In this document: one piece after another, positions 3,206 to 38,976 of the stretch | Position numbering within the stretch: position 1 is the stretch's first letter | Layout of the letters: each line of letters starts with the position of its first letter | Virus record (IMG/VR): IMGVR_UViG_3300042389_001739 | Location: 1-64,000 of that record | Length of the DNA stretch: 64,000 nt | Reading direction: 5' to 3' (one strand) | DNA from: a virus | Made by a program: the position numbers and the translations under genes | Notes under the pieces: generated by a model | What the model was told of the DNA's origin: nothing | The model's database searches: none | Seen by the model: the letters and a program-made list of their open reading frames with translations, nothing else

Positions 3206-3769
3206 TTAAATAGTTTCGTCAGAAAAATTCGATTCGCTGCGGATACCGCTCAACCAATCAGGATGATTAGCCCGGAGCCAGGCATACGCTTCCTTGATGT
3301 TGACGTACACTGCAAACCCGTTAGGGTCATCGCTGTGCGGTAGTTTTGGTATATGCTCCAGGTAGGCAAAGAAATCCAGGGCCATCGGATCTTTCACCAC
3401 ATAAGCCATGTAGTCCAAAACGCCGTCTGCAGCATAATCACCGCCCCAGTCCTCATCGGCCAATTCTACCAGCGTGGTGAATTCGGCGCCTTTAAAGTAT
3501 TCCGTGCAATCAAGTTCTACCGTTTTATTGCCGCAATCAGAGCGTACGGTACAAGTCACGCGAACGTCGTCCTCCAATTCCGGTTCGTCGTCATCCTCCG
3601 CCCGTTCAATCACCAGCTTGTAATGCAGCAACTCCAGCGCGTCGCCGTACATGACCAGCTTGTCCTGCGGCGTATTGCCGTCGTATTGTTGGAGTAATTC
3701 AGTGCGCTGGTTTTCATCCAGCGTGCTGACTAACACTGCGTTGTATTTTGGTTTGTTGTGCTGACTCAT
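3206..3769 (-). CDS. Acidic hypothetical protein
   Basis: 187 residues, very acidic (for example RAEDDDEPELEDDV). The middle has DCGNKTVELDCTEYF and the C-terminus AYAWLRANHPDWL. The ATG overlaps the stop of the upstream gene (ATGA), so the two are translationally coupled. A high negative charge is sometimes seen in phage DNA mimics, but nothing else supports that here. Confidence 0.75.
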   Translation of the reverse strand: MSQHNKPKYNAVLVSTLDENQRTELLQQYDGNTPQDKLVMYGDALELLHYKLVIERAEDDDEPELEDDVRVTCTVRSDCGNKTVELDCTEYFKGAEFTTLVELADEDWGGDYAADGVLDYMAYVVKDPMALDFFAYLEHIPKLPHSDDPNGFAVYVNIKEAYAWLRANHPDWLSGIRSESNFSDETI

Positions 3770-4644
3770 CGTGATTGAACTTTCTTAAAGTTGGGTTTAA
3801 TGTGTTTTCGTAGCCAGGCGGCTTGTGCGGCCCTGGCTCGTGCGATGGCCGCAAGTTTATCTGCCTCAGTGTCAAAATTTAAGCTGGCGGCCTCTGCTGC
3901 GCGTGCGGCGATACAGGTAATATCGTTTTGTTTGCCAGAAGCGATACAAGCTGCATCTTTCGTATCAGTGCCTAGCTTACTCAACAAACGTTGCGCAATT
4001 TCGGTATCTTCTGTCTGCTCCAAAAAATGCCAGGTGATGTTTAAACAGTACACAGCAAAGCGAAATCGTTCTTTAATTGTCAGCACTTGCGGCTGTGTAG
4101 CAATCACGAGGAGTGCGTGAGGTTCTACCTTGTCCCAACACTCCTGCATTGTTTGGCCCTGCAGCGTCCACGGCATTCCCTGCAGAAAATGTTTGGCACA
4201 AAATTCATCGATTGACATATCACGGTCTTCAGCCGGATCACCGCACTTCGCCTGCAGCTTCCGCATAATTGTGTGCGCCACTCGATCTAACTTATCCACC
4301 AATGTCTGCCGCTGCGTTTTAAATTCTTGTCGCTTTTCCGCAGTGTTAGCGAAAATCTCAAAGTCAGCCGCGGTGTGAATTTTTTCCGAAATCTCCTGAT
4401 ACTCTGCCAACAGTTGACTGACGGCGCGCAACGGCCTTAACACAGCGGCCAGCTGCAGAATTTTGGCAGGGTCGGCAGTCGTAATATGGTTTACAATACG
4501 CGGGTCAAGCTGTTTTACTTCGAACAGTATGTCGTTCTCGTCATCAACTACATACCCTTGACGTGTCTCACGCCAGTTCTTGTTTTGGACGCGGACCGCG
4601 TGATATTGCAGACTTTCCAGCAATTCCTCGAGTTCTGTGATCAT
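3766..4644 (-). CDS. Alanine-rich family protein with extra N-terminal domain, copy 3
   Basis: 292 residues. The first 140 residues are an additional helical domain not present in the other copies (IDPAKILQLAAVLRPLRAV...). From about residue 140 the family layout returns, though divergent: SIDEFCAKHFLQGMPW, MQECWDKV, a degenerate FRFAVYCLNITWHFLEQ core, an alanine-containing stretch and a terminal WLRKHIKPNFKKV. The C-terminal copy lacks the DGVL and CCR residues, so it is the most diverged member. It overlaps both neighbours by ATGA. Confidence 0.8.
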   Translation of the reverse strand: MITELEELLESLQYHAVRVQNKNWRETRQGYVVDDENDILFEVKQLDPRIVNHITTADPAKILQLAAVLRPLRAVSQLLAEYQEISEKIHTAADFEIFANTAEKRQEFKTQRQTLVDKLDRVAHTIMRKLQAKCGDPAEDRDMSIDEFCAKHFLQGMPWTLQGQTMQECWDKVEPHALLVIATQPQVLTIKERFRFAVYCLNITWHFLEQTEDTEIAQRLLSKLGTDTKDAACIASGKQNDITCIAARAAEAASLNFDTEADKLAAIARARAAQAAWLRKHIKPNFKKVQSR

Positions 4645-4877
4645 GGTTGGTTTTCCTTAAAACTGGATTTTAAACGATGCGTCCAAACCCCGGGTTTGTC
4701 CCAGAGCTTTAACAGTTTAGTAATATCGTCGCCGTATTTACAGTAAATTGTAAAATGCCGCAACATTTTTGTCCTGTTATGTGTTTTTTCTATCACAACC
4801 GGACGGTAATTTGCAGGCAATAGCGGCAAAGTCGGTCGCTCGTAAGCGGTATAAAAAACGATTCCAGCCTGTTTCAT
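4641..4877 (-). CDS. Small hypothetical protein
   Basis: 78 residues, basic, with FYTAYERPTLPLLPANY near the N-terminus. AAGGTG precedes the ATG at 4877. ATGA overlaps on both sides place it in a coupled operon with 3766-4644 and 4874-5134. No domain is recognised. Confidence 0.65.
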   Translation of the reverse strand: MKQAGIVFYTAYERPTLPLLPANYRPVVIEKTHNRTKMLRHFTIYCKYGDDITKLLKLWDKPGVWTHRLKSSFKENQP

Positions 4878-5134
4878 AATGACACCTTATCTTCAAACGA
4901 GGCTCCGCAGGCAATACGGTTACCCAGCGCATCCATCGCTTTGAGATCAGTATCTTTAGCCACGTCCGTCCATCGCTGTCGAATTTCCGCCACGTCTTCT
5001 TGCAGTTGTGGATCAAAGTATTCCAGAAAGAACTGTAGCGCGTTGACCAGCATGTACCGCTCAGTCTGTGTCACCCGCAGACTGGTGGAAAACTCTGGCA
5101 CTCGTCTTTGCGGTTTTGGTTCAGCTTCACTCAT
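4874..5134 (-). CDS. Small hypothetical protein
   Basis: 86 residues with a helical centre (MLVNALQFFLEYFDPQLQEDV). The ATG at 5134 follows AGGAG at 6 nt, so this is probably the first gene of the 5134 to 3206 operon. The 143-bp region upstream (5135-5277) is the likely promoter area. No family is recognised. Confidence 0.7.
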   Translation of the reverse strand: MSEAEPKPQRRVPEFSTSLRVTQTERYMLVNALQFFLEYFDPQLQEDVAEIRQRWTDVAKDTDLKAMDALGNRIACGASFEDKVSL

Positions 5135-5277
5135 GCATCACTCCTAAACAAAACACCACAGCGACTGTGATGACGTTAAAACCCTCATAAACGGCCGTAA
5201 ATGGCCCTTGGTTGCGTTTACACGCTAAAGTAGATTAAAACCTCTACGTGTGCTGCTAAACGCTAAAAACGCAAATT
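5135..5277. other. Intergenic spacer with small CACAG/CTGTG hairpin
   Basis: No gene fits here. It contains CACCACAGCGACTGTGATG at 5154-5172, a small stem. Its CACCACAG and ACTGTGATG ends are the same as those of the 90-bp repeat hairpins at 10.4 and 11.9 kb, although the CCTGCA/TGCAGG outer stem is missing. AT-rich segments upstream of the 5134 start could hold a promoter, but no clear hexamers were identified. Confidence 0.35.
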
Positions 5278-5544
5278 TTATTGCAATACAGCCATGGACT
5301 TCACGTCCATCGTCATCAGCACGTCCATGACGTAGGTTTTGGCCAGCACGGTTTTCGGTCGTGGCTGCTTTGTTTTGTAAATCAGGTTGTAAGCCTTTTC
5401 GCGTGCCTCCAGGCGTGAACTGCTGGATTTCACCAGGATCAAGTGGTGTTTATTTTGCCGGGTTACGCCGATCATCACCGGCACTGTCGTGCGATGCAGC
5501 AATTCCTCAAGCAACTGATCGCGATTTCCAAGGCTTTTTGTCAT
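5278..5544 (-). CDS. Small basic hypothetical protein
   Basis: 88 residues, Lys/Arg-rich with a serine run (KSSSSRLEAREKAYNLIYKTK). AGGAT precedes the ATG at 5544, and the upstream gene stops 3 bp earlier. The C-terminal half is methionine- and valine-rich (YVMDVLMTMDVKSMAVLQ). No known domain. Confidence 0.65.
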   Translation of the reverse strand: MTKSLGNRDQLLEELLHRTTVPVMIGVTRQNKHHLILVKSSSSRLEAREKAYNLIYKTKQPRPKTVLAKTYVMDVLMTMDVKSMAVLQ

Positions 5545-5547
5545 CGG

Positions 5548-6075
5548 TTAATCCTGTGCTTTTTTGAAATTAGGTTCGGTATTGGCACGCAGCCAGGCCA
5601 TCTGTTTAGTTTTCAGCTCATCCGATTGTAAACCGTTTTCTTTTGATGCCTCGCATGCGTAGGTGGACACCAGGAGCATTGCTTCCGCAGCATAGGAAAA
5701 CAAAGCACACCGAACCGTAGTACGCGCAGAAAATTGCGGCTTTTGTCTAACAGGTGTCTCAGCTACGGCTGTGTAAACGGCAGTCAACTCTTCGGGTTCG
5801 GCCTGTCCGTTGGCATAGCGTTCCAAAAATTCTACAGCATCACGGCATTCTCGGTTCGGTAAGAATTGCCAGATTTCACGACAGCAGAACGCAAAGTAAA
5901 GCCGTATTTCTTTTTCCGTTAAAACGCCATCCCGAGCTGCGACCCAGAGTAAATCGTCATAGGGCAACCGCTCCCAACATTCCTGCATGGAACTACAGTG
6001 CGTAAGCGCCCAGTCGCGACCGCTGGGGCAGGCATCGTGCAATTCACAGAACTCTTCGATGGTTAAGTCGGGCAT
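5548..6075 (-). CDS. Alanine-rich family protein, copy 4
   Basis: 175 residues with the full family order: DLTIEEFCELHDACPSGRDWAL, SSMQECWERLPYDDLLWVAARDGVLTEKEIRLY, FAFCCREIWQFL, a helical middle with few alanines, and a terminal WLRANTEPNFKKAQ. It overlaps copy 5 by 13 bp. The N-terminal halves of copies 4 and 5 are nearly identical at both DNA and protein level (about 5,990-6,075 versus 6,530-6,620), which points to recent tandem duplication. Function unknown. Confidence 0.85.
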   Translation of the reverse strand: MPDLTIEEFCELHDACPSGRDWALTHCSSMQECWERLPYDDLLWVAARDGVLTEKEIRLYFAFCCREIWQFLPNRECRDAVEFLERYANGQAEPEELTAVYTAVAETPVRQKPQFSARTTVRCALFSYAAEAMLLVSTYACEASKENGLQSDELKTKQMAWLRANTEPNFKKAQD

Positions 6076-6620
6076 AGGGCTTCTCGCGTAAAATTGGGTC
6101 TAGTGTTGGCACGCAGCCAGGTCATCTGTTTAAGCTTTAGCTCATTGGACGACAAACCGGCAGCCTCTAGTGCGGCACAAGCGTAACCCGCTGTTGCGTA
6201 TAAAGCGCCCACCGGGCGTGTCGCGCCTGCACAGATCGCTGCAAGTCTCGCGTTGTAGTATTGTTTCGGTAGATTATCCGTATACCGGATCACCGACAAA
6301 GATATAGGCGACACAGCATCAGCTGCTGAAATTAACTCATAAAAGTTCACCTGCTTGTTTGCGTAAAGTTCAGCCAAGTCTACAAGCCGCCGCCAATGTG
6401 GATCTGTCATGAACTGCCAGATTTCACGGCAGCAAAACACACAAAAGAGACGACATTCTACATCAGTTAATACGCCATTACGCACAGCGACCCAGCGTAA
6501 ATAATCATACGGCATTTTGTTCCAGCATTCCTGCATGGAACTACAGTGTGTAAGCGCCCAGTCGCGGCCATCTTCACAGGCATCGTGCAATTCACAAAAC
6601 TCTTCGATGGTTAAGTCCAT
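6063..6620 (-). CDS. Alanine-rich family protein, copy 5
   Basis: 185 residues: DLTIEEFCELHDACEDGRDWAL, SSMQECWNKMPYDYLRWVAVRNGVL, CRLFCVFCCREIWQFM, a middle with scattered Ala, and WLRANTRPNFTREAL near the end. The N-terminus is almost the same as copy 4 while the middle region differs. This suggests the core is constrained and the middle is free to vary. The weak ribosome site and close packing suggest coupling to the gene at 6623-6901. Confidence 0.85.
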   Translation of the reverse strand: MDLTIEEFCELHDACEDGRDWALTHCSSMQECWNKMPYDYLRWVAVRNGVLTDVECRLFCVFCCREIWQFMTDPHWRRLVDLAELYANKQVNFYELISAADAVSPISLSVIRYTDNLPKQYYNARLAAICAGATRPVGALYATAGYACAALEAAGLSSNELKLKQMTWLRANTRPNFTREALCPT

Positions 6621-7876: not shown

Positions 7877-8194
7877 TCAGACTCCAAAATGAATTTGTTT
7901 CTTGAAAGCCTTAGTTTCAGCGATCTCAGCATAATTTTCAGGGTAGGTGTAACAGAGAATCGCAGGGTAAAAATTTTTACCCTGCTTTTTGTACTGTTTT
8001 CCTACTGCAAAAAATTCGACGTCTTCCGATTCAAGTACTGTGAAGTAAATCCAGTGCTTGTTGTCTTTGGCGTAGCAGGCATCAATCGAAATGCGTGCGA
8101 CAATTTTTATATTTTTATGCCACTTTGGCTTGGTTCGAGATCCTGTGAAAACAGGAAAATTAGCCGTAAAAATCGTACCGAGCACGGCGTTCAT
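7877..8194 (-). CDS. Hypothetical protein
   Basis: 105 residues, basic and aromatic-rich (YFTVLESEDVEFFAVGKQYKKQ), predicted mostly beta. It is in one leftward operon with its neighbours. No family is recognised. Confidence 0.6.
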   Translation of the reverse strand: MNAVLGTIFTANFPVFTGSRTKPKWHKNIKIVARISIDACYAKDNKHWIYFTVLESEDVEFFAVGKQYKKQGKNFYPAILCYTYPENYAEIAETKAFKKQIHFGV

Positions 8195-8224
8195 ATGAGA
8201 TTCTTTGTGTTAAAATTCAGCGGA

Positions 8225-8605
8225 TTAAACAATTCTGCTGTATACTGCACCACTGCTTTCCAGCTGCTGTTGTGCGTATTCTGTAGCGAACTCACACACC
8301 AACAGACCTGGCCTAAAATCCGGATTTAGTGGCTTTGAGTTTGTCAGTTCATCCAGTGCAAGATGAGCGCGCTGCCACAATTTTAGAATGTTCAGCACGA
8401 CGATTAAACTTTCATGCGGCGCTGCGGTAACGACCAATGTAGCGCCTTGCTGTAAGTGCCTTGCGTGTGTTGTCAACCGAGTCAGCGTTTCAACCGCGTC
8501 TGCCAATTCTTCCTTACTTACCGGCTCACCGGTCACAGCCCGAAAGAAAACGAAACCAGCCGCGGAGGTTTTTGCGGTATCCCAATCTGTCAAATGCTCT
8601 GCCAT
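8225..8605 (-). CDS. Hypothetical protein
   Basis: 126 residues; AAGGA precedes the ATG at 8605. Mostly helical with one hydrophobic stretch (ATLVVTAAPHESLIVVLNIL) that is probably a buried core. The C-terminus contains LLVCEFATEYAQQQLESS. No family recognised. Confidence 0.65.
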   Translation of the reverse strand: MAEHLTDWDTAKTSAAGFVFFRAVTGEPVSKEELADAVETLTRLTTHARHLQQGATLVVTAAPHESLIVVLNILKLWQRAHLALDELTNSKPLNPDFRPGLLVCEFATEYAQQQLESSGAVYSRIV

Positions 8606-8623
8606 TTTAACTTCCTTGTAAGC

Positions 8624-9376
8624 TTAACCTTCAATTTCCAGTTGTCTAAACACTTCGGGCTTACGCTGTACAACGGTTTCCCAGACTGTGCTGCTCGCAT
8701 ACTTCCGCTGTAAGTCATACACCACATCCTGCCCGTGGGGTCCGGCGTTACCGTCCTGTGGGCTAAAATGGGCGGCGACCATAATTCCCATAGGATAGGC
8801 CCTGGTCGCCCAGTCTTCGATTTTTTCTTCTAGTTCTGGCTTGGTTATTTCTGTTCCTATTTCGTCCTTAACCTGGATTAACCTTATCACGGTAGGCACA
8901 TCCGTGTTGTTGGTTAAGTTCAGTTCAATCCTGGCAATGTCTGCCGCAATTGCAGCGTTGTAGAGCGCAGCTGGTAACGGAACTGCGCCGCCAAGCACGC
9001 GTTCAATTGGGAGACTTGTCAGCTGTAGCTTGGACGCCACTTTTGGGCCGTAAAACCGCCTAGGCAGTTCCTGCCAATCCTGAATCGATTGAGTTTCTTG
9101 CGCGATATCATACGCAACAAGAACTCCTGCACGGACGCCAGGTTGTAAACTGTACCGATAGTTATGCGAAGCCCATTTATAGATTGCTTGTTCAACGGCT
9201 AACTGCCCCTGAAATTCCTGTTCAAATCCGTCTTGCTGACAGAGCAGCTGTAATTCTACCCTTGTGGAATTGCCTGCATTTTCGTGATCTGGTGTAGTAA
9301 TGCGTAAAACTACTTTACTAATTCCGGCTTTTCGGCAAAGAATATACAAATCAGCATCAAACGGCAAAAGTTCCAT
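8624..9376 (-). CDS. Hypothetical protein
   Basis: 250 residues, predicted mixed alpha/beta. The N-terminal half reads VVLRITTPDHENAGNSTRVELQ and the middle has an alanine-rich helix (PLPAALYNAAIAADIARIEL). It ends YDLQRKYASSTVWETVVQRKPEVFRQLEIEG. I see no catalytic or metal motif. It is the longest protein of the 7-10 kb accessory run. Confidence 0.7.
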   Translation of the reverse strand: MELLPFDADLYILCRKAGISKVVLRITTPDHENAGNSTRVELQLLCQQDGFEQEFQGQLAVEQAIYKWASHNYRYSLQPGVRAGVLVAYDIAQETQSIQDWQELPRRFYGPKVASKLQLTSLPIERVLGGAVPLPAALYNAAIAADIARIELNLTNNTDVPTVIRLIQVKDEIGTEITKPELEEKIEDWATRAYPMGIMVAAHFSPQDGNAGPHGQDVVYDLQRKYASSTVWETVVQRKPEVFRQLEIEG

Positions 9377-9377
9377 A

Positions 9378-9572
9378 TCATTTCATCTTTCGGGATTTAG
9401 AGTAATAGCGGTGAATCAACGCACTGGTTTCTGCTTTTCGCTTTGCCAGTGCACAGTCTGCGTGCGTTGTAAACAGGTTGCTGTAATAACTGGCCGAGTT
9501 TCCGTATTTACGTGCGCGTTCCTCGGCTGAAGGAACGAGTACAATCGGTTTATTGCAGACTGTACAGTTCAT
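9378..9572 (-). CDS. Small CxxC-containing protein
   Basis: 64 residues opening MNCTVCNKPIVLVPS, with a later HADCALA segment. Two Cys followed by His and Cys could make one zinc site. The C-terminus is very basic (YYSKSRKMK). The start overlaps the upstream stop by ATGA. Confidence 0.6.
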   Translation of the reverse strand: MNCTVCNKPIVLVPSAEERARKYGNSASYYSNLFTTHADCALAKRKAETSALIHRYYSKSRKMK

Positions 9573-9784
9573 GCGTGTCCAGACCTTATTAAGTCAGTTA
9601 ATTTGAAAAAATTCACAATTTCCCAGCTGGGCATCGTTTTCGAATCGTCCAGCTGGATTAGCGCGTCACGTCTGCCGACGCGGCAATTCCGCACCGCCGC
9701 CGCACAGGGGAGAGCATAACGCGTATCCTTAGGCGGAAAGTGATTGAACTGCAAGTGCCAGTTAATAATGTTTTCCAACAACAT
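9569..9784 (-). CDS. Small hypothetical protein
   Basis: 71 residues. It includes PPKDTRYALPCAAAVRNCRVGRRDALIQLDDS, a plausible small beta domain. The upstream gene stops 2 bp before the ATG and the downstream one overlaps it. No recognised family. Confidence 0.55.
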   Translation of the reverse strand: MLLENIINWHLQFNHFPPKDTRYALPCAAAVRNCRVGRRDALIQLDDSKTMPSWEIVNFFKLTDLIRSGHA

Positions 9785-9786
9785 GA

Positions 9787-10104
9787 TTATGATTCTTTCA
9801 CCTTAAATGTGAAATAAGCTACATTACCGCCCGTGTAGTCCAAATCATTGGACCAGGCAAACCACGTATCCTCGCTGATATCCAGCAAGCTGTCCAGTTT
9901 GTGCTTTTCTTTGAAAGCAAGTATTGCCTGCTTTTCAAACTCTTGTACCTCGTAGTCATCCCCGTAGGTAAGGTAATACCCATAAACTTCGGGCAACACA
10001 AAAGTTTCGGTACGCCACTTTTGTGCTGGTACCACGGCCGCAGGTGGCTTAGGGGCAAAAACCAACGCCGCTACTGTCTTGAACCAGCTACGTCGATGCA
10101 TCAT
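9787..10104 (-). CDS. Hypothetical protein with twin-arginine-like N-terminus
   Basis: 105 residues. AGGGAG lies upstream of the double ATG at 10104. The N-terminus MMHRRSWFKTVAALVFAPKPP resembles a Tat-type leader (RRSWFK followed by a short hydrophobic run), but the hydrophobic segment is short, so export is uncertain. The remainder is acidic and soluble (DDYEVQEFEKQAI, DTWFAWSNDLDYTGGN). Confidence 0.65.
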   Translation of the reverse strand: MMHRRSWFKTVAALVFAPKPPAAVVPAQKWRTETFVLPEVYGYYLTYGDDYEVQEFEKQAILAFKEKHKLDSLLDISEDTWFAWSNDLDYTGGNVAYFTFKVKES

Positions 10105-10323
10105 TTATCTCCCTTGAAAAAGTCGAGAATTAGTTTGCTTATAAACAACGTCATCCAGCGCGCGCTGCCAGCTTGACCAGCAATCCGGGTAACCTTTTTC
10201 TTCAAACACTTTCATCGCATGCCGACATTCCTGTTTGATTTTTGCTGAATCGCCGGTGTTAATTGCGCGAGTCAGCCTGGCTTTAAGTTGAGTAAGTTCT
10301 TGTTTTGGTAGCTTGTAACTCAC
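10105..10323 (-). CDS. Small hypothetical helical protein
   Basis: 72 residues, GTG start at 10323 with GGAG 6 nt upstream. Basic, predicted helical (QELTQLKARLTRAINTGDSAKIKQECRHAMKVFEEKG). Its promoter or leader region is the repeat array A immediately upstream, ending about 60 bp from the start. Confidence 0.6.
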   Translation of the reverse strand: MSYKLPKQELTQLKARLTRAINTGDSAKIKQECRHAMKVFEEKGYPDCWSSWQRALDDVVYKQTNSRLFQGR

Positions 10324-10379
10324 AGATTCTCCATCAAAGAATTAGAAAAATTCGGCCCAACCTATTGAGCCAAAAGGGG

Positions 10380-10416
10380 AAAAACCTGCACCACAGATAT
10401 CTCACTGTGATGCAGG
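10380..10416 (-). terminator. Intrinsic-terminator-like hairpin (last unit of array A)
   Basis: On the minus strand the 12-bp stem CCTGCATCACAG/CTGTGGTGCAGG (one G-U pair, 8-nt loop) is followed by TTTTT. It sits downstream of the gene ending at 10630. The other array units have only TTTCTCTT or TTTAA after the stem, so this copy is the best terminator. Confidence 0.55.
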
Positions 10417-10629
10417 TGACCCTGCCTTGCCCTGCCCTACCTTGCCCCGCCGCGCCTCGCCCCGCCAAGAGAAACCTGCACCACAGATATCTCACTGTGA
10501 TGCAGGTGACCCTGCCATGCCTGGCCCGGCCCCGCCACGCCTCGCCTTGCCCCGCCAGGAGAAACCTGCACCACAGGTATTTCACTGTGCTGCAGGTGAC
10601 CCTGCCATGCCTAGCCTTGCCATGCTCTG
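10381..10629. repeat. Array A: three 90-bp hairpin plus GCC-pentamer repeats
   Basis: Hairpins begin at 10385, 10475 and 10565, exactly 90 bp apart. Each has CCTGCACCACAG, an 8-nt loop and CTGTG(A/C)TGCAGG. Each is followed by TGACC and a run of 5-mers of the form NNGCC (nine in units 1 and 2, five in the shortened unit 3, which runs into the stop of 10630-11124), then A(A/G)GAGAAA. The first 5-mer is always CTGCC and the last CCGCC. The ones between vary in their first two bases. The 306-bp gap carries nothing else. On the minus strand the 5-mer blocks are G-rich. Function unknown. Confidence 0.9.
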
Positions 10630-11124
10630 TTAGTTTTTAGGTGGTTTAAAACATCCTACAGGTTTCAGTTTAGGCGGTGGTGCCAGATAGTCCGACTCTG
10701 TCGGATTCGAATGATGTTTAATTTCGCGTAACGATTTTTGCACCGCAACGAGCGACGCGCTGATTTTACGCGACTCAAGTTCATGTTGTCGCCGATCGAC
10801 TTCACCCAGCTGTGAAATGTCAACCTGATCCACGTGCCGTTTGCTGCGGCGGATCTTTTTTACACCCGTGCGAAATCTTTTAGCCTGGAATTCCACCGAT
10901 TCCGCGTCGGTCAAAACATAGACTGCACCTTTTACCGCACGTAAACTCCAACGCTTGCCTTGCGCCCAAAGTGCCTGCTCTAAAATTCCGGCTAACTGCA
11001 ACGCGACAAAATTCAAAGATTCAGGCGTAAAGTCTTCAACGCCAGCTATTTTGCTTACTTCGTCTGCAGGTATACAACTACCCTTTTCAAGGGTATCCAG
11101 AAATTTTAAATCGAAATTGGTCAT
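10630..11124 (-). CDS. Hypothetical protein between the two repeat arrays
   Basis: 164 residues. The N-terminal half is a compact mixed domain (LDTLEKGSCIPADEVSKIAGVEDF..., ALWAQGKRWSLRAVKGAVYVLTDAE), and the centre is strongly basic (KRFRTGVKKIRRSKRH). The C-terminus is helical, ending PPPKLKPVGCFKPPKN. The N-terminal layout recalls small helix-turn-helix-like or RNA-binding domains, but this is only an impression. It is coupled by ATGA to the gene at 11121-11714. Arrays A and B flank the pair. Confidence 0.75.
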   Translation of the reverse strand: MTNFDLKFLDTLEKGSCIPADEVSKIAGVEDFTPESLNFVALQLAGILEQALWAQGKRWSLRAVKGAVYVLTDAESVEFQAKRFRTGVKKIRRSKRHVDQVDISQLGEVDRRQHELESRKISASLVAVQKSLREIKHHSNPTESDYLAPPPKLKPVGCFKPPKN

Positions 11125-11714
11125 GTAATCTCCTTAAAATCCGTAACCTCGAACAACCCAAATCGAGGGCGATAATCGCAAATGCCTACCGAACGGCCAG
11201 CAAGATGACAGATTCGTTCAAGATCGTCAACGTTGAAATCATAAAGATTAACTTCTATGTCTGCCGCCCACACATTAAAACGGGGACGATACCGCATAAT
11301 GCGCTTTGTCTGCACTCCAGCGCAGCGTAGATCCACGTATTTGTTGCCTGCATTCCAAAAGTCATCAATAGTTGCCTTCAAACCCACAGGGTGATCGTGA
11401 ATCAACAATGAGTCCTTTGTCACGATAACTCCAGCCAAGGCCTGCTTTTTCATCCGTAACTTAGTTGCCCCTGCGATTATCATTCCTTGTATGCAATCGG
11501 CAGTCAGTATTGGACGACGCTCCTTGTCATAGTAGAAGCCGTTGTACCAATCCAGTCTGGCAATCTCTATATAGTCTTCATCAGTCTTGTTTTTCTTTGA
11601 AGTGACTGCTTTTAACTGCTTACTTTCTTGGCTTAATGGATTAGCGGCACGTGAGGCGTGCATCAGTAGTGCACGCACCCCTTTAATAGAAAAACGAACG
11701 GAAGTTTCGGCCAT
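11121..11714 (-). CDS. Conserved-type phage protein with GDxRPRFGxFEV-like end
   Basis: 197 residues from MAETSVRFSIKGVRALLMH; the ATG at 11714 has AAGGA upstream, while an extension to 11795 has no such site. Order: GVRALLMHASRAANPLSQ, a DEDYIEIARLDWYNGFYYD segment, RPILTADCIQGMIIAGATK, then RPRFNVWAADIEVNL and the tail GICDYRPRFGLFEVTDF. I recognise this order from a widespread phage family of unknown function (from memory). The paired RPRF segments and strand pattern hint at a RAMP-like fold, which is inference. It is the first gene after array B and forms the bracketed module with 10630-11124. Confidence 0.8.
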   Translation of the reverse strand: MAETSVRFSIKGVRALLMHASRAANPLSQESKQLKAVTSKKNKTDEDYIEIARLDWYNGFYYDKERRPILTADCIQGMIIAGATKLRMKKQALAGVIVTKDSLLIHDHPVGLKATIDDFWNAGNKYVDLRCAGVQTKRIMRYRPRFNVWAADIEVNLYDFNVDDLERICHLAGRSVGICDYRPRFGLFEVTDFKEIT

Positions 11715-11846
11715 TAGCTGATTCCTTATTTTTGTTGCTTCCGCAGAAGCCGTTAAAATGTTTGTTTGTCCTGGCAGTAAAACTACTACCAGCACCTTAC
11801 ATTATCCGCCGCAACTGCATAGAAACCGCTGTTCTATTCAGTTAAA
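11715..11846. other. Spacer between array B and gene 11121-11714
   Basis: AT-richer, non-coding by inspection: the only reading frames are under 15 codons or continue the downstream gene without a start signal. It probably contains the leader of the two-gene module. No clear promoter hexamers were found. Confidence 0.4.
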
Positions 11847-12028
11847 CCTGCACCACAGATATCTCACTGTGATGCAGGTGACCCTGCCTTGCCCGGCCTT
11901 GCCATGCCGCGCCGTGCCTAGCCCCGCCAAGAGAAACCTGCACCACAGATATCTCACTGTGATGCAGGTGACCCTGCCCCGCCTGGCCCGACCTAGCCAT
12001 GCCTTACCATGCCCCGCCAAGCCATGTA
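11844..12028. repeat. Array B: two 90-bp hairpin plus GCC-pentamer repeats
   Basis: Same unit as array A. Hairpins begin at 11847 and 11937 (90 bp apart) with identical arms and loop. The NNGCC block after the first hairpin again has nine 5-mers starting CTGCC and ending CCGCC, with different inner dinucleotides from those of array A. The block after the second ends CCGCC, AAGCCATG and is then lost. The array lies between the genes ending at 12081 and starting at 11714. Confidence 0.9.
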
Positions 12029-12080
12029 ATAAACATATTAACTCTTTAGTGGGACAAATACAAACACTTTTAAGTGCATT

Positions 12081-12440
12081 TTAAAGTTGACGGTTAGCCC
12101 CAAAATATTCCGTCGCGCGCGTCATTTCCGCGTCATAATCCTCATCTGGATCGTAATTAAATTTGACAGCCACAGGGTTTAACTGTTCAACGTCACGGCA
12201 ATGTCGGTAATGGCTGAGTTCCAAACTTGCGGAATGCAAATCCGATTCGTCTTCGTCACTTAATGTCTTTTCCGTGTTGAAATACAAAAACTGTAGCCAA
12301 TAGCTGGGAGTAAACTCGCAGACAGCAGTGCGTTTGTCGGCGTCATAAAGAAAAACTTGGGTAAGTTTGCCCGTTTTACGTCGCAGTGCTGGTGTCAGGT
12401 GCTGTGAATTGATGGGTATCTTTACCAGGTGTAGCTGCAT
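12081..12440 (-). CDS. Hypothetical acidic protein
   Basis: About 119 residues from MQLHLVKIP. The ATG at 12440 follows AAAGGAG, though at rather long spacing; the longer reading to 12596 would run deep into the neighbour. The C-terminal half is acidic (SDEDESDL, NYDPDEDYDAEMT). It overlaps the end of the upstream gene by 65 bp in another frame. No family recognised. Confidence 0.65.
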   Translation of the reverse strand: MQLHLVKIPINSQHLTPALRRKTGKLTQVFLYDADKRTAVCEFTPSYWLQFLYFNTEKTLSDEDESDLHSASLELSHYRHCRDVEQLNPVAVKFNYDPDEDYDAEMTRATEYFGANRQL

Positions 12441-13161
12441 CGGAATTCTGCTCCTTTCGGCGTTTGACTCGGAATATTCTGTCCAGAATAGCTTTAGCTT
12501 TAAGCGCAGCAAGCGGTAGCTCGGGGATCCGATCATACGCCAGATATTGTTTTCTGATGACCTTAAATCCGGCGTATTTACGCATGTCGCCCCCAAACTT
12601 GTCCACCAGCTGCGCCCAAATTAGGGCTTTCTCGTTTGCGGTGCAATTATGTAGTTGAATCTTCCAGTAGCGCAAACAATAGAGAACAAAAGGTGATTCT
12701 TCCGGAATGGGCAAATACACAAGATTCTCGGCAATCTTCTGTATGCGGGTAGGCGTCAGAAGTCGATTGACAGCTTTGGGCCGTTTCGATAGTTTTCTTA
12801 AACTAAACGTTCCATCGTTGTGTACTGTTATTCCCGCAAGGCGGAACTGGCGGCGGCGAAAACCGCCTGAATCTACGTGCGAAAGTAATCGACCATACTT
12901 TTGCAGTAACTGCCTGACTTGATCGATATCAAATGTCACAATACCGGGAACAGTGTAAAATTCTACAGAAACATCGTTAACAATACACATGTAACCGTAA
13001 CCAGGCGCAATGTCAGGGTACGAGGCCTTTAAAATTTGTACCAGACATTCAACGTTGTCTACCAAAATTGCGCCGGGCTTGAGCAATTCTTCCCGTGCTT
13101 TTGTATGGACATATTTTACAAAATTAGAGTACTGTACAGGAACAAAACCTTGAAAATCCAT
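12376..13161 (-). CDS. Hypothetical protein
   Basis: About 261 residues. The ATG at 13161 (MDFQGFVPVQ) with AGGAG at 8 nt is preferred over the GTG at 13170. N-terminal alpha/beta region (EELLKPGAILVDNVECLVQILKA, YTVPGIVTFDIDQVRQLLQKYG). The middle is basic and could contact nucleic acid (SKRPKAVNRLLTPTRIQKIAENLVYL). The C-terminus is low-complexity, rich in Thr and Ala. No catalytic motif recognised. Confidence 0.7.
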   Translation of the reverse strand: MDFQGFVPVQYSNFVKYVHTKAREELLKPGAILVDNVECLVQILKASYPDIAPGYGYMCIVNDVSVEFYTVPGIVTFDIDQVRQLLQKYGRLLSHVDSGGFRRRQFRLAGITVHNDGTFSLRKLSKRPKAVNRLLTPTRIQKIAENLVYLPIPEESPFVLYCLRYWKIQLHNCTANEKALIWAQLVDKFGGDMRKYAGFKVIRKQYLAYDRIPELPLAALKAKAILDRIFRVKRRKEQNSDAATPGKDTHQFTAPDTSTAT

Positions 13162-13218
13162 CAGTGACACTCCTGAAAGCTGGAGGGCAGTGCCCTCCAG
13201 CAGTAGTGATAAAGAAAT

Positions 13219-13866
13219 TTACTCAGGTAACGCCAGTACCTTTTGCACCAGACTCGACTTGATTGAGTCGAGGATTGCCACGCCTTGATCACCCATAGAC
13301 TGAAGCTTGGCTTCCGCCAACTGGGCGGTGGTGATTCGCTGTAGTGCCGGAATATCCGTGCGCTTGCGGCGCAGCGTCAATATTTCGTCTGTTAAATTTG
13401 AGATGGTTGATTCCACTCCTTGACATTTAATGTGCATTGCAGAGATATCAAGCTCAGCGAAACCTGCGAATACCTGTGTTAATATGTTAAACCCGTAAAT
13501 CGATTGCGTAGTTGGTTGAGTCACGCGCAAGCACACGCGATGTTTGTCGCGATCAACGATGTAATCCAGTTTCAGCGGCAGCCCCAAGGTGCGGCCGGTT
13601 TCGCAAAAAGATTCAGCGGCCGACCGCAGGTGTACGGGAAAATTACGCTCGGCCGTTTGACGCATTTCCAGCAGAATCTTCTCTTTCTTTTGTGTTGCTT
13701 CATTCATCTGGGTGGTTTTCCCCTGCTCCAGCTTTTTCAGATTTTCTTCAATGTGGGTTACACCAATTGCGACGATGTCGCTGATATTCAGCTCGGCCTG
13801 CAGGTTAATCGCAGGCATTGCAGCTTCAACGACACCAGTAACCTTGTTGTTCTTGCGCTTAGCCAT
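13219..13866 (-). CDS. Hypothetical helical protein
   Basis: 215 residues with GAGGA ahead of ATG 13866. Predicted largely helical: NISDIVAIGVTHIEENLKKLEQGK, then a charged helix (NEATQKKEKILLEMRQTAERNF), a beta segment (LKLDYIVDRDKHRVCLRVTQ) and a C-terminal helix. A coiled-coil structural or scaffold role is possible but unsupported. Confidence 0.7.
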   Translation of the reverse strand: MAKRKNNKVTGVVEAAMPAINLQAELNISDIVAIGVTHIEENLKKLEQGKTTQMNEATQKKEKILLEMRQTAERNFPVHLRSAAESFCETGRTLGLPLKLDYIVDRDKHRVCLRVTQPTTQSIYGFNILTQVFAGFAELDISAMHIKCQGVESTISNLTDEILTLRRKRTDIPALQRITTAQLAEAKLQSMGDQGVAILDSIKSSLVQKVLALPE

Positions 13867-31533: not shown

Positions 31534-33027
31534 TCACTTCGACTTTTTACGAGTTTTATGCTCCAGCTGCATTGCCTCGTACGGTAAAGGCAATACCTTG
31601 CGCCGCTTGATATTCAGCGCATCGCGAATCCGATCACAGACCTCGGGATTATCCTGAATCATCTGGCCGACCTCAGAAAACGGCAGATATTCTTTACCCA
31701 TCCCCAGCGCCGGGAAATTTGCCAGGCACTCCAAATCCGCTTTTGGACTTTGACAATTGATGTGCAGATCGCGCGCTTTGAGTCGTTGCTGTCCTGTACC
31801 CTCCAGCTCGTGGAGCAAAGTTACCAGCGCCCAGTTCCAGTCCCACAAAAACACATCGCGAGGATCGCCTGTCTCGGGGTCGTCTTCGACCCACCAGATA
31901 AACCGGGTCTTAATTCGTCGCCCGGTAGGTCCGAACGAATTCTTGGAACACCGCAGTTCGATACCGATACCCTCAAATTGGGCATTCTTAATTTTTGAAC
32001 GCCAGACTCCGGTCTGGACCTCAAAACTTTCGTGGAAATTAAACGCCTGACCCCCCAGCGTATACCGATGCGCGTTACCCTGTTGATCAGTCTTTTCCTT
32101 GAGGTGATTAATCAGCAGCAATGTAAAAGGCCAGTCATCCAGCTCGCTTTTGATCGCAGGCAGATAGTTGGAATTCATCAGTGCGGTGATCGGGTGCACG
32201 CGTCCGGCGGTACCGTCCTTTTGTACCTTCTCCAGCACTTCCTGCGACTGGGTGCCACCGATCGAGTCGACACAGCAACAAACCGGAATTTTTTTCCCGG
32301 GGCCTACCTCGTTATCGGAAACACGCACCATATCGCGCTGAAGTTCGCGAACATAGTGCGTCAGCATCTGCTGCCAAACCTCCGTACTGTCGGCTTTATT
32401 CGATATGATTGGCATATGATTGCGCGCAACCCGCATGATGTCACACGCAAAATCCGCATCAAATTTGAACTCCGTATCAATATGTACGGAGATGCCCTGC
32501 CTTTCATAAAACCAGCGAAATATTTCGTACGACAGCGCGGACTTGCAGGTGCCCCAGGTACCCGCCAGCATCATCACACTGGATAAAGGGAAAACGTCGT
32601 TCGCCAATAAGTACTCAAATGCCAGCGAAGGCATGGGAATCCCGATGGCCAGCTGCTGGAGTTCTTCCCGCGAAGCAAACACATGGTTTTGCCCGAATTT
32701 ATCCCGTGCCCGGTTCAGCAGACTGGTCATCATTTCGGACCGCGTTGCTGCGGCGTTGACATCAGACCAACGCGTCACAAGTGCTTCCTGCTGCTTCTGA
32801 TTCAGTCGCCGCTTATCTGGCAAAATAATATGATTTTTGCGCGGAGTTGCGGCAACGGCGATCTGCTGCGGGAATTCTTCGCCTTCAGCTTCAAGTTGCA
32901 CTGTCGGCGGCGGAGGCTGAGCCGCGGATCGGCGTGGTAACTTCTTTGCCGGTTGAGCTTTTTTCTTGGTTTCCGCTTTTTTCACCCGCGGTGGGGCATC
33001 GCCTAACATATCTTCGTATTCGCTCAT
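31534..33027 (-). CDS. RecA/UvsX-like recombinase
   Basis: 497 residues from MSEYEDMLGD; the ATG at 33025-33027 has GAGG at 7 nt, better than a longer start. A basic, proline-rich leader precedes the core. Walker A is AGTWGTCKSALSYE (about 154-167) with Cys replacing the last Gly, and VHIDTEFKFD follows. VCCCVDSIGGTQSQEV is the Walker B and the following helix. Then FTLLLINHLKEKTDQQGNAHRYTLGGQAFNF carries the pattern of RecA loop L2. It would coat ssDNA and carry out strand exchange with the SbcCD-like and nuclease proteins in this operon. T4 UvsX also has a substituted P-loop, which makes the Cys tolerable. Confidence 0.85.
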   Translation of the reverse strand: MSEYEDMLGDAPPRVKKAETKKKAQPAKKLPRRSAAQPPPPTVQLEAEGEEFPQQIAVAATPRKNHIILPDKRRLNQKQQEALVTRWSDVNAAATRSEMMTSLLNRARDKFGQNHVFASREELQQLAIGIPMPSLAFEYLLANDVFPLSSVMMLAGTWGTCKSALSYEIFRWFYERQGISVHIDTEFKFDADFACDIMRVARNHMPIISNKADSTEVWQQMLTHYVRELQRDMVRVSDNEVGPGKKIPVCCCVDSIGGTQSQEVLEKVQKDGTAGRVHPITALMNSNYLPAIKSELDDWPFTLLLINHLKEKTDQQGNAHRYTLGGQAFNFHESFEVQTGVWRSKIKNAQFEGIGIELRCSKNSFGPTGRRIKTRFIWWVEDDPETGDPRDVFLWDWNWALVTLLHELEGTGQQRLKARDLHINCQSPKADLECLANFPALGMGKEYLPFSEVGQMIQDNPEVCDRIRDALNIKRRKVLPLPYEAMQLEHKTRKKSK

Positions 33028-33052
33028 GAGATCCTCGATTGTGGTTGGGGAA

Positions 33053-33093
33053 CCGACGTGAGGCAATTATACCTCACGTCGGCGTGAAAACAA
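33053..33093 (-). promoter_or_regulatory. Candidate promoter with overlapping 11-bp dyad
   Basis: On the minus strand TTGTTT (33088-33093), 16 bp, then TATAAT (33066-33071). CCGACGTGAGG (33053-33063) and CCTCACGTCGG (33072-33082) form a perfect inverted repeat with the -10 in its 8-bp loop. It is immediately upstream of the RecA-like gene. Promoter and operator identity are inferences. Confidence 0.5.
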
Positions 33094-34761: not shown

Positions 34762-35413
34762 TGTTACTCCTAGTGGGAATATAGTTCACAATCTCATCTA
34801 CAATCCGCTCTGGTTCAACCAGCGCGTTGTCTTTAACGCAGCAAATTCGCACCGATTTTACGGTGGGTTGATATTCTATCAGACGATCCCGGTAAAAAGC
34901 ATTCACCTTTTCCAGAAGCGTCCGATCACGCTCATGCACGTCCAGTTTGCCGTCACGTTTTGCAACATTTTTTATTGCAAAATCCACCGGCATATCCAGG
35001 TAAACTAAAAGATCCGGTACGGGCAAACCAAACGTACCGTGTTCCAGTTTATCCAGGTATTTCAATAACCGATCCTGTTCTGCTCCTTCCGTTTTTGCGG
35101 CCAGATAGGCCAGGTTTGAGGCGACATACCGGTCCACAATCGCGATCGACTGTCCGTCTGCCGCCGCCTGCAGCTGATGCTGATCGGAATCAAATCGATT
35201 GATTGCCCACAGGGTACTACAAAACTCGGGAGTAATCGCCTGATGATACTTGTTATCCAAAATACGGCGAATCAACTGACCGCTGGCTGATTGATATTCC
35301 GGATACTTGACTACATACACCGGTAAACTCATTCGCTGGCGCAAACGCCACAATAAACGGTTAGCCGCGGTGGTTTTACCAGAACCGTCAATTCCCTCCA
35401 GATTAATGATCAC
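34754..35413 (-). CDS. tmk: Thymidylate kinase
   Basis: 219 residues, GTG start at 35413 overlapping the polymerase stop by GTGA. P-loop EGIDGSGKTTAANRLL (about 6-21), a VVKYPEYQSASGQLIRRIL segment corresponding to the substrate-binding stretch, the DRY motif in AIVDRYVASNLAY (about 91-103), and a lid region with VAKRDGKLDVHE. It phosphorylates dTMP to dTDP, supplying dTTP for phage DNA synthesis. It lies directly between the polymerase and SSB-like genes. Confidence 0.93.
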   Translation of the reverse strand: MIINLEGIDGSGKTTAANRLLWRLRQRMSLPVYVVKYPEYQSASGQLIRRILDNKYHQAITPEFCSTLWAINRFDSDQHQLQAAADGQSIAIVDRYVASNLAYLAAKTEGAEQDRLLKYLDKLEHGTFGLPVPDLLVYLDMPVDFAIKNVAKRDGKLDVHERDRTLLEKVNAFYRDRLIEYQPTVKSVRICCVKDNALVEPERIVDEIVNYIPTRSNNG

Positions 35414-38400
35414 GCTTTGCCTTTCCGCTTACGCCATAGCTCATAGGACTTGTCCTCCAGGTTTCGTTGTGGTCTGACTTTGGTTGCCGCCACGATCGAT
35501 CGTTGCGGCTTTGTTGGGGCATCTTTGCTGTACGTTACCACACAACCCTCCGCCCCGCCGTGTCCGGTCGGCAGGCCGCGTTCTACCGCCTCGGCATAAA
35601 CTAGCTTTTCGCCCCAATAGTTCATCACCTCGGCTTCGATACCAAGATAATACGGACCGTCTCCTGTCGGAATCCCCTCCAAAGTACTGGGGTAAATCGG
35701 CACGGCCTTCCGCATGTAAGTCGGCAAAACATATTCGCAGACGTGTTTAACGTACCTGTCCGGCACTTCCAATAAAATGGCGTCATGAATCTGCAGCACG
35801 ACGTTAAAGAGATTATGCCCCTTTTTAGCCTGGCGTAGCTTGTAATCATAAAGATAAGCCAACGCACGCGACACCGCACTGGCGATCATGGACTGAATCG
35901 GGAAGTTCATGGCTTGGCGCCCAAACTCCGCCCGCAGAGCCTGATCCCGACTGGAATCCGGAAACCGCCGGAAGCGGCCGTAGCAGTTACAAAGCCAGCG
36001 ACTTTTAACTTGTTCCTGCGTGTTTTCGTCCGTGTAGGTACCTGCGGCCCGGTCCTGACACTCCTGAAAGAAAGGTCGCAGTTTAGGATACATTTCGAAA
36101 ATAGCGTTGATCACGGCTTGCGCTTCATCAACAGAAATGTCAATTTTCTGCTCCTTTGCGGCCACGGCAATCGCCTTAGCCCCTCGCCCGTAGGCGATTC
36201 CGAAAATCACGGACTTGGCCACAATCCGGATATGCTTTTTGCCAATGGCTTCCAGCCCACTTTTGGTGGGCGGACACTGCAGTTTAAAAGCAAAAACCGC
36301 CACATTGCTGTGGATGTCGTAGTAATCCGGATGATCTTCCGGCAACTGATTCCGCTGCGCGTGCGCAATCATATTCGGATCACCCGACATTACCGCCATC
36401 CCGAACAGTTCGGCGCCGACATAGTCGGCTTCCACCAGCACATGTCCCGGTGACGCTTTAAGCACGCTTCTCAGACTATATTTGTAATGCTCGCCAAGCA
36501 ACCGCTTGTAGTCCGGATCGCGTTGCTTGGAGATATTCTGCAGATTCGGTCGAGCACTGGACCAACGGCCAGTTTCCTTAGTCTGATAAATGTGGGTTCG
36601 TACTTTACCGTCATCGCAAACCAGTGAAGCCAACCCATCCTCGTATTCCATGTAACCGTCTTCGTTGTACTTTGCCTCCTCGGTCTTGTCGTCACGGCTG
36701 GGCGGACGCAGTACTGTCTTTAATACCTGATCAAGAAACCGATAATCCCGCAGCATGTCGATCAGACGCGCCTGATGCTCGTGTTCGGCGTCTTGTGCCA
36801 GTAGCGACAGCGCCTGTTTATTGGTAGAAGGCGAGTGGTTGTACTCCTGCTGCTGTCGCTTAATCTCCAGCCAGGGTCGCGGTGGTTTGGAGGTGTCAAA
36901 AACCGGGGTCAGTTTAAGCGAAGTTGCCCCTGGTGGTCGAATCTTGACCTCTTTCCCGGTTTCCTTGTTAATCCGGCCGTTGAGTTTTTCTCCGAATAAA
37001 AACTCCCGAACGTGCTGTGTCGAACGCACGTTGAACTCTGGCCAGTTAATTTCCGCTTTAAGTCGATTTTCCAGGTCTGCCCGTGCGTCCATAAACCGGG
37101 CCGTAAGAAAATCCACGCGGGAGCGGTCGACCATGATCCCGGTGCGGTGAATTTCCAACACCGCCGGGGTAGCAATCTGAGATTCCCAAAAGGCCTCCCG
37201 GCAGTTATTACCTTCGTAATCTTCATCCAGCAACAAGTCGAATTTGTAGAACAACCGCAAGGTTACGTCCGCGTCGTACATACCGTACGGCAGAAGAATT
37301 TCGTCAGGGCACATGCCGTACCCTTCGAGATCGCTGCTGCTCAGACCCTGCTGGCGACAGTAATCAATCTTCCACTTATCCAGCTCCCGGTCATAACGCG
37401 GTGCAGTGGTGTAACGCATGGCAAGCGTTTCCAGATTGTACTTGGCCGTCTCCTCGATAGCATGTGCCATCAAACCAGTGTCAGCACCGCCCTCGTATTT
37501 GGTGCGATACCAGGCGGGAACAACTTCACCCGCTTTGAAACCATCCTCCGCATACAACTTATGCAGCTTGGTGCCAGGCACCAGCGTGTAGTCGTAGAGC
37601 GGTGCCATGAAACATTCCTGCAGGTCGATGCCATAATCAACCAGCCACTCCAAGTCCGCGTTAAAGAAGTGCCCAATCACGCGTTTGCGGCGAAATTCAA
37701 CAGCACCGTTTGCATGCTCGTAACGGCCGCCCTTGAAAAAAACGTTAAGGAGTTTAATCGTTTCCTGCAAAATACCGCGTGCATTGGTTTCCTGCGGTGT
37801 GCCGCAAAAACCAAGCGTTACGTCACCCCCGGCGTCATGCAGTTTGATCCCGATCGCATGTTTTGGTCGCCAGGCAAACTGAATTGTGCGCATGTAGGTG
37901 TCGTGGTTGACCGGATGCTGACCGTGCCACTCCGCATCCACCGCAATCACATCGTCAGACTTTTCAGGATCCTGCTCGATGTTTACCAGCAGATCAAACA
38001 ACTGTGCGTGATTATCGACCACTACGTGATTGACCGTTTCGGTTTCGCCTAAATCTGCGCCTCGCAGCAAAGCCGCAAACCGGGCTAAACCACTTTCCAG
38101 CTGACGGAGTGCGGATTGATCACGGATGACCTGTTTGGGATGGACCACGGTAATGACTTTGGCTTCCTGCCAGCTGGTTTCAGCCAGTTCCGCAGTGTAC
38201 GCCGTGTTATACCGAAAAGTACCAACTTGACCCAGCATATCCGTAACGCTGGCTTGCGGACCAAGTATGGCTTTACTGGCATCTGTGCCCAGACAGAGAA
38301 TGTACTTGGGCTGTACGATTTTAATTTCCTGCATCAACAGGTGCATGCCGTCGTTGACCCAGGAAGCTTTTAACGTTGTCTTGAAGTTTGGGGGCTTAAA

Positions 38401-38976
38401 CTTGACCAGGTGTGTCAGGTAAAAGTCATCCAGCCGCTCAATCTTCAACCGCTGCATTAAATCGAACAGGAGCTCGCCGTCTGCGTCGCTGAGGCAGGCT
38501 TTATACTCCAGTTCCGTATCCCAGGGGTTTTTATTGATAATCATCACGCGTGCGGGGCGAGGTCCCGCGATGTCCAAGTGTTTAAGCGATTGCCCTCGCA
38601 AGTGACCCGGTAAAAACTTTGCGATTTTTTCCTGATGCGGTCCGACTTCCACCGGCATGGAAAAGTCGACCGTCCGCAATGCCCGCTGAATCAGGCGCTG
38701 CAAATCTTCGCTGTACTCCAGCTGCCGCACCTTTTTATCCTGCGCGTTTTTAACCTCTACAATTTTGCTCTTAGTGTCACCCAGCGCGTTGACGTGCGAA
38801 ACAAATGACGAATTGGGGGGCAGTACCGGCAGTCCAGGAGCATCCAGCGGAAAGATTGCGTCGCCCGTATGCATTGCCGCAATACGGGCCGCCTGGCGCT
38901 GCTCTAGCAGCAGCGTATTCTTTACAGGCGGTAAACTACCGTCCCGCATTCCTTTCAATTTACGTGGCGGAATCAT
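35410..38976 (-). CDS. Family A DNA polymerase fused to a UDG-like N-terminal domain
   Basis: 1188 residues. Residues about 140-310 resemble the UDG superfamily: VMIINKNPWDTE, LTHLVKFKPP, KYILCLGTDASKAILG, then VVHPKQVIRDQ. The catalytic loop of active family-4 UDG (GEAPG) is not present. Residues about 340-570 carry a 3'-5' exonuclease: VIAVDAEW (D347, E349), HFFNADLEWL (D441) and YDADVT. The polymerase follows with motif A VEADYVGAEL (about 848-857), motif B KSVIFGIAYGRG (about 921-932) and motif C QIHDAIL (about 1062-1068). It is the main replicative polymerase. The UDG/exonuclease/PolA layout is known from SPO1-like phages. GGAG precedes the ATG. Confidence 0.95.
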   Translation of the reverse strand: MIPPRKLKGMRDGSLPPVKNTLLLEQRQAARIAAMHTGDAIFPLDAPGLPVLPPNSSFVSHVNALGDTKSKIVEVKNAQDKKVRQLEYSEDLQRLIQRALRTVDFSMPVEVGPHQEKIAKFLPGHLRGQSLKHLDIAGPRPARVMIINKNPWDTELEYKACLSDADGELLFDLMQRLKIERLDDFYLTHLVKFKPPNFKTTLKASWVNDGMHLLMQEIKIVQPKYILCLGTDASKAILGPQASVTDMLGQVGTFRYNTAYTAELAETSWQEAKVITVVHPKQVIRDQSALRQLESGLARFAALLRGADLGETETVNHVVVDNHAQLFDLLVNIEQDPEKSDDVIAVDAEWHGQHPVNHDTYMRTIQFAWRPKHAIGIKLHDAGGDVTLGFCGTPQETNARGILQETIKLLNVFFKGGRYEHANGAVEFRRKRVIGHFFNADLEWLVDYGIDLQECFMAPLYDYTLVPGTKLHKLYAEDGFKAGEVVPAWYRTKYEGGADTGLMAHAIEETAKYNLETLAMRYTTAPRYDRELDKWKIDYCRQQGLSSSDLEGYGMCPDEILLPYGMYDADVTLRLFYKFDLLLDEDYEGNNCREAFWESQIATPAVLEIHRTGIMVDRSRVDFLTARFMDARADLENRLKAEINWPEFNVRSTQHVREFLFGEKLNGRINKETGKEVKIRPPGATSLKLTPVFDTSKPPRPWLEIKRQQQEYNHSPSTNKQALSLLAQDAEHEHQARLIDMLRDYRFLDQVLKTVLRPPSRDDKTEEAKYNEDGYMEYEDGLASLVCDDGKVRTHIYQTKETGRWSSARPNLQNISKQRDPDYKRLLGEHYKYSLRSVLKASPGHVLVEADYVGAELFGMAVMSGDPNMIAHAQRNQLPEDHPDYYDIHSNVAVFAFKLQCPPTKSGLEAIGKKHIRIVAKSVIFGIAYGRGAKAIAVAAKEQKIDISVDEAQAVINAIFEMYPKLRPFFQECQDRAAGTYTDENTQEQVKSRWLCNCYGRFRRFPDSSRDQALRAEFGRQAMNFPIQSMIASAVSRALAYLYDYKLRQAKKGHNLFNVVLQIHDAILLEVPDRYVKHVCEYVLPTYMRKAVPIYPSTLEGIPTGDGPYYLGIEAEVMNYWGEKLVYAEAVERGLPTGHGGAEGCVVTYSKDAPTKPQRSIVAATKVRPQRNLEDKSYELWRKRKGKA

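Follow-up and report, generated by a model that had tools for sequence, protein, structure and literature searches.

Background

VIPR (Viral Interference Programmable Repeat) loci encode a RAMP protein, Vipr, usually one accessory gene, vap, and guide RNAs termed vrRNAs (PMC13142463, bioRxiv 2026). According to the main text of that report, vrRNAs have 9-16 YNNGG repeats followed by a structured 3' tail that does not vary, a pseudoknot in the SUSP1 clade, and their NN letters pair with DNA, one base being skipped, with silencing of competing phages (PMC13142463). Seven VIPR types are distinguished there; the clade of SUSP1 and P. fulva is type II, and vrRNA expression and co-purification with Vipr were published for these two (PMC13142463).

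Here we describe a two-gene locus with flanking repeat arrays in a window of 64,000 nucleotides from a 79,722-base IMG/VR virus record. We assign it with high confidence to the VIPR systems, with a Vipr protein, a candidate accessory gene and predicted vrRNA guides, because the Vipr homology, the RAMP fold, the GGY/NN tracts and the structured tail fit the published description. It is a divergent and previously unannotated VIPR locus, which groups separately from the characterised SUSP1/Pseudomonas branch. The terminase (58578-60542), DNA polymerase (35410-38976) and UvsX-like recombinase (31534-33066) of the window are distant from those of known phages. Elsewhere in the window, small paralogous genes at 5548-6075, 6063-6620 and also 178-819 encode DLTIEEFCELHDAC..GRDWAL or a close variant.

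Two other kinds of RNA-guided systems invite comparison. Like class 1 CRISPR effectors (Csm3/Cas7), the system of the window would combine a RAMP fold with assembly on a guide RNA that has regularly skipped letters; unlike them, it is encoded without Cas1/Cas2 or CRISPR repeats and uses a noncontiguous pentamer code and one small protein. No match to Cas proteins was found among the ten proteins at 7877-13866 in Pfam and PHROGs, and the repeat unit is built differently from that of a CRISPR array. TIGR-Tas systems resemble VIPR in being phage-borne, in targeting DNA by RNA guidance and in having tandem arrays. The Tas proteins have a different, Nop-like fold, and their arrays, unlike those of VIPR, are without GGYNN pentamers.

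Organization of the locus and its repeat units

Tandem Repeats Finder and a second repeat finder detected a 90-bp period at 10382-10616 and 11844-12021; the units themselves occupy 10382-10625 (array A, three copies, the innermost truncated) and 11844-12023 (array B, two copies). Together with the gene coordinates, this confirms a sequence-only reading of the same DNA, in which two 90-bp arrays directly flank exactly two genes: the minus-strand genes 10630-11124 and 11121-11714, which overlap by 4 nt, lie exactly between them. The 90-bp unit was found nowhere else in the 79.7-kb record, as that reading had also stated from inspection of the window; the partial match it listed at 5154 is an unrelated short CACAG-CTGTG palindrome without pentamers. 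The predicted features, all on the minus strand, are as follows.

11121..11714, minus: vipr, predicted single-domain RAMP protein of 197 aa, phrog_4652 (PDB profile match, AlphaFold2, Foldseek)
10630..11124, minus: vap-like candidate accessory gene, 164 aa, 4-nt overlap with vipr (position, coupling, weak homology)
11969..12023, minus: vrRNA B1 guide tract, 11 GGY, TT-GG-AT-AA-AT-TA-CG-CA-GG-AG
11936..11969, minus: vrRNA B1 tail hairpin, 13 bp, then a T-rich run
11879..11928, minus: vrRNA B2 guide tract, 10 GGY, GG-TA-AC-GC-AT-AA-CG-AA-AG
11846..11879, minus: vrRNA B2 tail hairpin
10562..10625, minus: vrRNA A3, truncated copy, 5 GGY, mismatched hairpin
10507..10556, minus: vrRNA A2 guide tract, GG-AA-GA-GT-GG-CG-CA-AT-AG
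10474..10507, minus: vrRNA A2 tail hairpin
10417..10466, minus: vrRNA A1 guide tract, GG-GA-GC-GG-AA-AG-AG-AA-AG
10384..10417, minus: vrRNA A1 tail hairpin, then TTTTT, the last unit of the locus

Read 5' to 3' on the minus strand, each unit consists of a tract of about ten GGY-NN pentamers, the linker GGTCA and a 13-bp hairpin. The four full tracts contain 10-11 GGY repeats each, and the codes of A1, A2, B1 and B2 all have seven variable NN pairs, preceded by a constant GG and followed by an AG that is likewise constant. The hairpin is invariant among the four full units, whose differences fall almost entirely on these seven NN pairs, the remainder being C/T substitutions at some of the Y positions and differences in a few linker letters. 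The earlier description of the units as identical direct repeats is thus incorrect, since the copies differ at the NN letters of the GGYNN tract and it is the differing letters that hold the information. Unit A3 directly adjoins the stop codon of the second gene; it has a G-G mismatch in its hairpin and is probably a remnant.

The full 13-bp pairing, with G-U pairs counted, is present only on the minus strand, which is the gene strand, and folding of the unit relative to shuffled sequences gave z = -7.7 on this strand vs -3.9 on the plus strand. The hairpin of A1 is followed by TTTTT and reads as an intrinsic terminator; since two other tails also score as terminator-like, the vrRNA tails may in addition end transcription. 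No Rfam match was obtained in the window, and no convincing sigma-70 promoter was found. An exact search of IMG/VR for the hairpin gave nothing other than an unrelated hairpin, present in three related contigs. The closest relatives identified, IMG/VR loci L014 and L015, have different stem sequences at the same tail position, with loops that in all three loci mostly start with TGARA, which supports a conserved hairpin.

Vipr is a RAMP-like protein of a separate clade

The 197-aa product of 11121-11714 belongs to phrog_4652, a family annotated as of unknown function, and shares 28-35% identity with homologues in Felixounavirus, Pseudomonas, Gordonia and Mycobacterium phages. One solved structure, chain D of 36pp ('SUSP1 Vipr protein'), was identified in PDB with E=1.6e-61 by a profile built from 55 members of the family. 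As modelled by AlphaFold2 (pLDDT 93.8, pTM 0.87), the window protein resembles CRISPR Csm3/Cas7 RAMP proteins: its top PDB matches in Foldseek, at E of about 1e-4 and TM of about 0.5, are RAMP subunits of the Cmr, Csm3 and type VII kinds.

This fold bears on a second interpretation, in which the arrays are cis-acting RNA elements through which a TRAP-like ring protein, bound to (GGYNN)n, would control the operon that encodes it. TRAP recognizes about 11 triplets separated by 2-nt spacers, a likeness to the pentamer tracts that is joined by the position of array B before vipr and by the resemblance of the tails to terminators. We nevertheless regard such autoregulation as highly improbable, given the RAMP fold of the protein, the published guide role of Vipr, the target information carried by the NN letters, for which a TRAP-like reader has no need, and the occurrence of arrays also downstream of both genes. 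The related proposal of the sequence-only reading, that the hairpins regulate the two genes, is replaced by an interpretation of the arrays as guide RNAs used by the gene product.

In a tree of 83 Vipr proteins, which was rooted arbitrarily at its midpoint and contains several long branches, the window protein and that of L014 group together at 100/100 within a group of 21 rows. Another group contains tootiki (close to SUSP1), LESphi2 and Medea1, and the Felixounavirus, Pseudomonas and actinophage members share a group separate from that of the window. On these sequence comparisons, the window Vipr is placed outside the SUSP1/Pseudomonas clade, type II. A search with the single Vipr sequence did not find close viral relatives, and no relatives of Vipr or of the second protein were found in a search of bacterial genomes.

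A candidate DNA-binding accessory protein

The second gene is 57% identical to its counterpart in L014/L015. Its position and coupling are conserved in the relatives, where a gene of ~150-195 aa usually directly follows vipr. Alignment by hhalign with the second gene of the Pseudomonas/Felixounavirus VIPR group is weak (prob 40, E 3e-4, 117 columns), a point against the VIPR assignment. The matches of the family profile to OmpR-type winged-helix DNA-binding domains are weak too (E 0.25-0.75). The structural model (pLDDT 87.6) combines a mixed helical/beta part at the N terminus with two long helices, and its comparison with PDB structures gave no significant match. The model would probably correspond to a winged-helix DNA-binding fold with long helices, and the protein is likely a DNA-binding accessory protein.

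Linkage of GGYNN arrays to vipr in related phages

A search with a six-sequence alignment found 312 viral relatives, from which 80 IMG/VR loci were retrieved; with seven GenBank phage loci they form a set of 87, or 88 including the window. Scanning the 87 related loci for GGYNN arrays revealed 167 arrays, all of them on the gene strand and within ~2 kb of the gene; the opposite strand yielded none, nor did Markov-resampled or shuffled sequence. At least one GGYNN tract is present in 72 of the 88 loci; the other 16 have no tract by the strict criterion, which we count against the VIPR assignment. The per-position entropy over all tracts is 0.29/0.53/1.01 bits at GGY vs 1.96/2.00 bits at NN. The last NN is common to the tracts of one locus in 31% of cases over all loci, the penultimate NN in 20% and inner NN pairs in ~7%; because of this sharing, the handle probably includes the 3' end of the tract.

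These comparisons sustain the earlier proposal of a single system made up of arrays and gene pair, GGYNN arrays accompanying the same gene family in most of the 87 loci, and do not sustain the mechanisms that had been attached to it. One of these was a mobile or recombination-exchanged module, in which the direct repeats would be recombination or transposition boundaries of a two-gene cassette. The repeats do lie on both sides of exactly two genes, and in other phages the gene pair occupies different genome positions, for instance in LittleE, where it runs against the strand of the tail genes. In the relatives, however, the gene pair does not always sit between arrays: these are found only upstream, between the genes or only downstream, which excludes a role as cassette boundaries. 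Moreover, the copies share a pentamer grammar and not a sequence, they are always on the gene strand, and no recombinase belongs to the gene pair. We consider the cassette even less probable than the TRAP-like regulator. The least probable of the alternatives is an origin of replication or a set of degenerate iterons: the presence of tandem, hairpin-bearing repeats in the genome of a phage would fit it, whereas the strand-locked linkage to vipr across diverse phages and the hypervariability of NN do not.

Among the close relatives, L014 and L015 have, around 3400-5400, near-identical vipr and vap genes (92-100% per 100 columns) with strongly diverged guide arrays on both sides (many blocks at 35-69%), a pattern that guide turnover would be expected to leave. 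In some VIPR loci, tRNA-like elements lie between or after the GGYNN tracts (L008 at 4599, 4720 and 4829; L010 at 3759, 3894, 5217 and 5358; L012 at 1671 and 3004; L013 at 2378; L046 at 4794 and 4910; L050 at 4186; L053 at 2896; L093 at 1907). Each has an acceptor-like stem of 6-7 bp, a ~10-nt linker often with TGGTNNCA and the T arm GGTTCGANTCC; ARAGORN labels one of them 'tRNA-???', and Rfam reports none. Through these elements, the arrays may become open to cleavage by RNase P and tRNA-end enzymes. The main text of the VIPR paper (PMC13142463) has no mention of tRNA.

Guide matches and the one-base-skip rule

We compared 128 distinct guide codes with 727 kb of the window and related loci, no locus having been fetched by guide pattern, and accepted matches at >=85% of NN pairs. 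With one skipped base, 27 sites were matched by 9 guides, related contigs being counted more than once. Skips of 0, 2 or 4 bases gave no match, and neither did 20 permutations of the NN order. A guide of L081 matches L084 at 14/15 NN pairs, and a guide of L084 matches the vipr gene of L081 at 10/10 NN, the skipped base falling on codon position 3; each of these two related phage contigs thus has a guide directed at the other. A single guide from L087 matches the vipr genes of six other loci. At the level of sequence matches, the published one-skip rule and VIPR-against-VIPR targeting are reproduced in the relatives.

For the guides of the window itself, codes A2 and B2 had no match in the window with up to three mismatches, and the inner codes of A1 and B1 had none in the full record with fewer than two; the guides thus give no sign of self-targeting. 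The seven-NN code of A2 (14 letters) matched at least 120 stretches in IMG/VR, which we attribute to chance because they are scattered over unrelated proteins. The 16-letter codes of the four guides matched 21, 24, 4 and 4 stretches in IMG/VR, a chance-like result. None of the contigs with 16-letter matches encodes window proteins, and contigs matched by different guides have no common target except for one weak similarity of ~69% identity, between the cluster of A1 matches and one contig matched by B2. In one phage cluster, A1 matches fall on a Shine-Dalgarno-like AGGAGG, within chance. No convincing target of A1, A2, B1 or B2 was found in IMG/VR, and this too counts against the VIPR assignment.

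Proposed function and comparison with SUSP1

In the VIPR mechanism as it would apply here, a minus-strand transcript would carry the vrRNAs, in each of which a tract of about ten GGY-NN pentamers at the 5' end would precede a hairpin tail at the 3' end. Vipr would assemble along the tract in multiple copies, probably one per pentamer, with GGY bound and NN exposed. The complex would pair with double-stranded DNA through NN, with one skipped base between pairs (NNxNNxNN), and, once bound, would silence transcription of a rival, either a phage or a mobile element; Vap, the second protein, would probably help by DNA binding. For the window phage, we infer vrRNA expression, formation of the ribonucleoprotein, DNA binding and silencing from the published work, and the silencing of competitors is its likely function.

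Like the VIPR of Escherichia phage SUSP1 (PDB 36pp), the locus contains a RAMP-type Vipr followed by a small candidate accessory gene, and predicted GGY/NN vrRNAs that end in a structured 3' tail, are encoded on the gene strand and lie on both sides of the gene pair. It differs in its Vipr, which is ~28% identical to the Felixounavirus homologue and belongs to another clade, in its four full guides, with seven variable NN, a constant GG before and AG after, and in its tail, a plain 13-bp hairpin in place of the pseudoknot described for the SUSP1 clade in the main text of the VIPR report. L014 and L015 are closer, with 57% identity in both Vipr and the second protein and hairpin tails with mostly TGARA loops; their guides and tail stem sequences differ from those of the window, and they have more units upstream. 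Tentatively, and with reservations, we suggest a VIPR subtype beyond those in the main text of the report, defined by head-to-tail 90-nt vrRNA units, a fixed first GG and last AG, exactly seven programmable NN, a terminator-like tail that would also set the RNA 3' end, and a second protein that falls outside the known Vap families.

The first report of VIPR dates from 2026, and the system has been proposed as a precursor of CRISPR effectors. The related loci provide independent support, from sequence alone, for the one-base-skip rule and reveal VIPR loci aimed at one another's vipr genes. The present locus adds a divergent VIPR in an unclassified phage, whose unusually regular guides help to define which part of the vrRNA is guide and which is handle.
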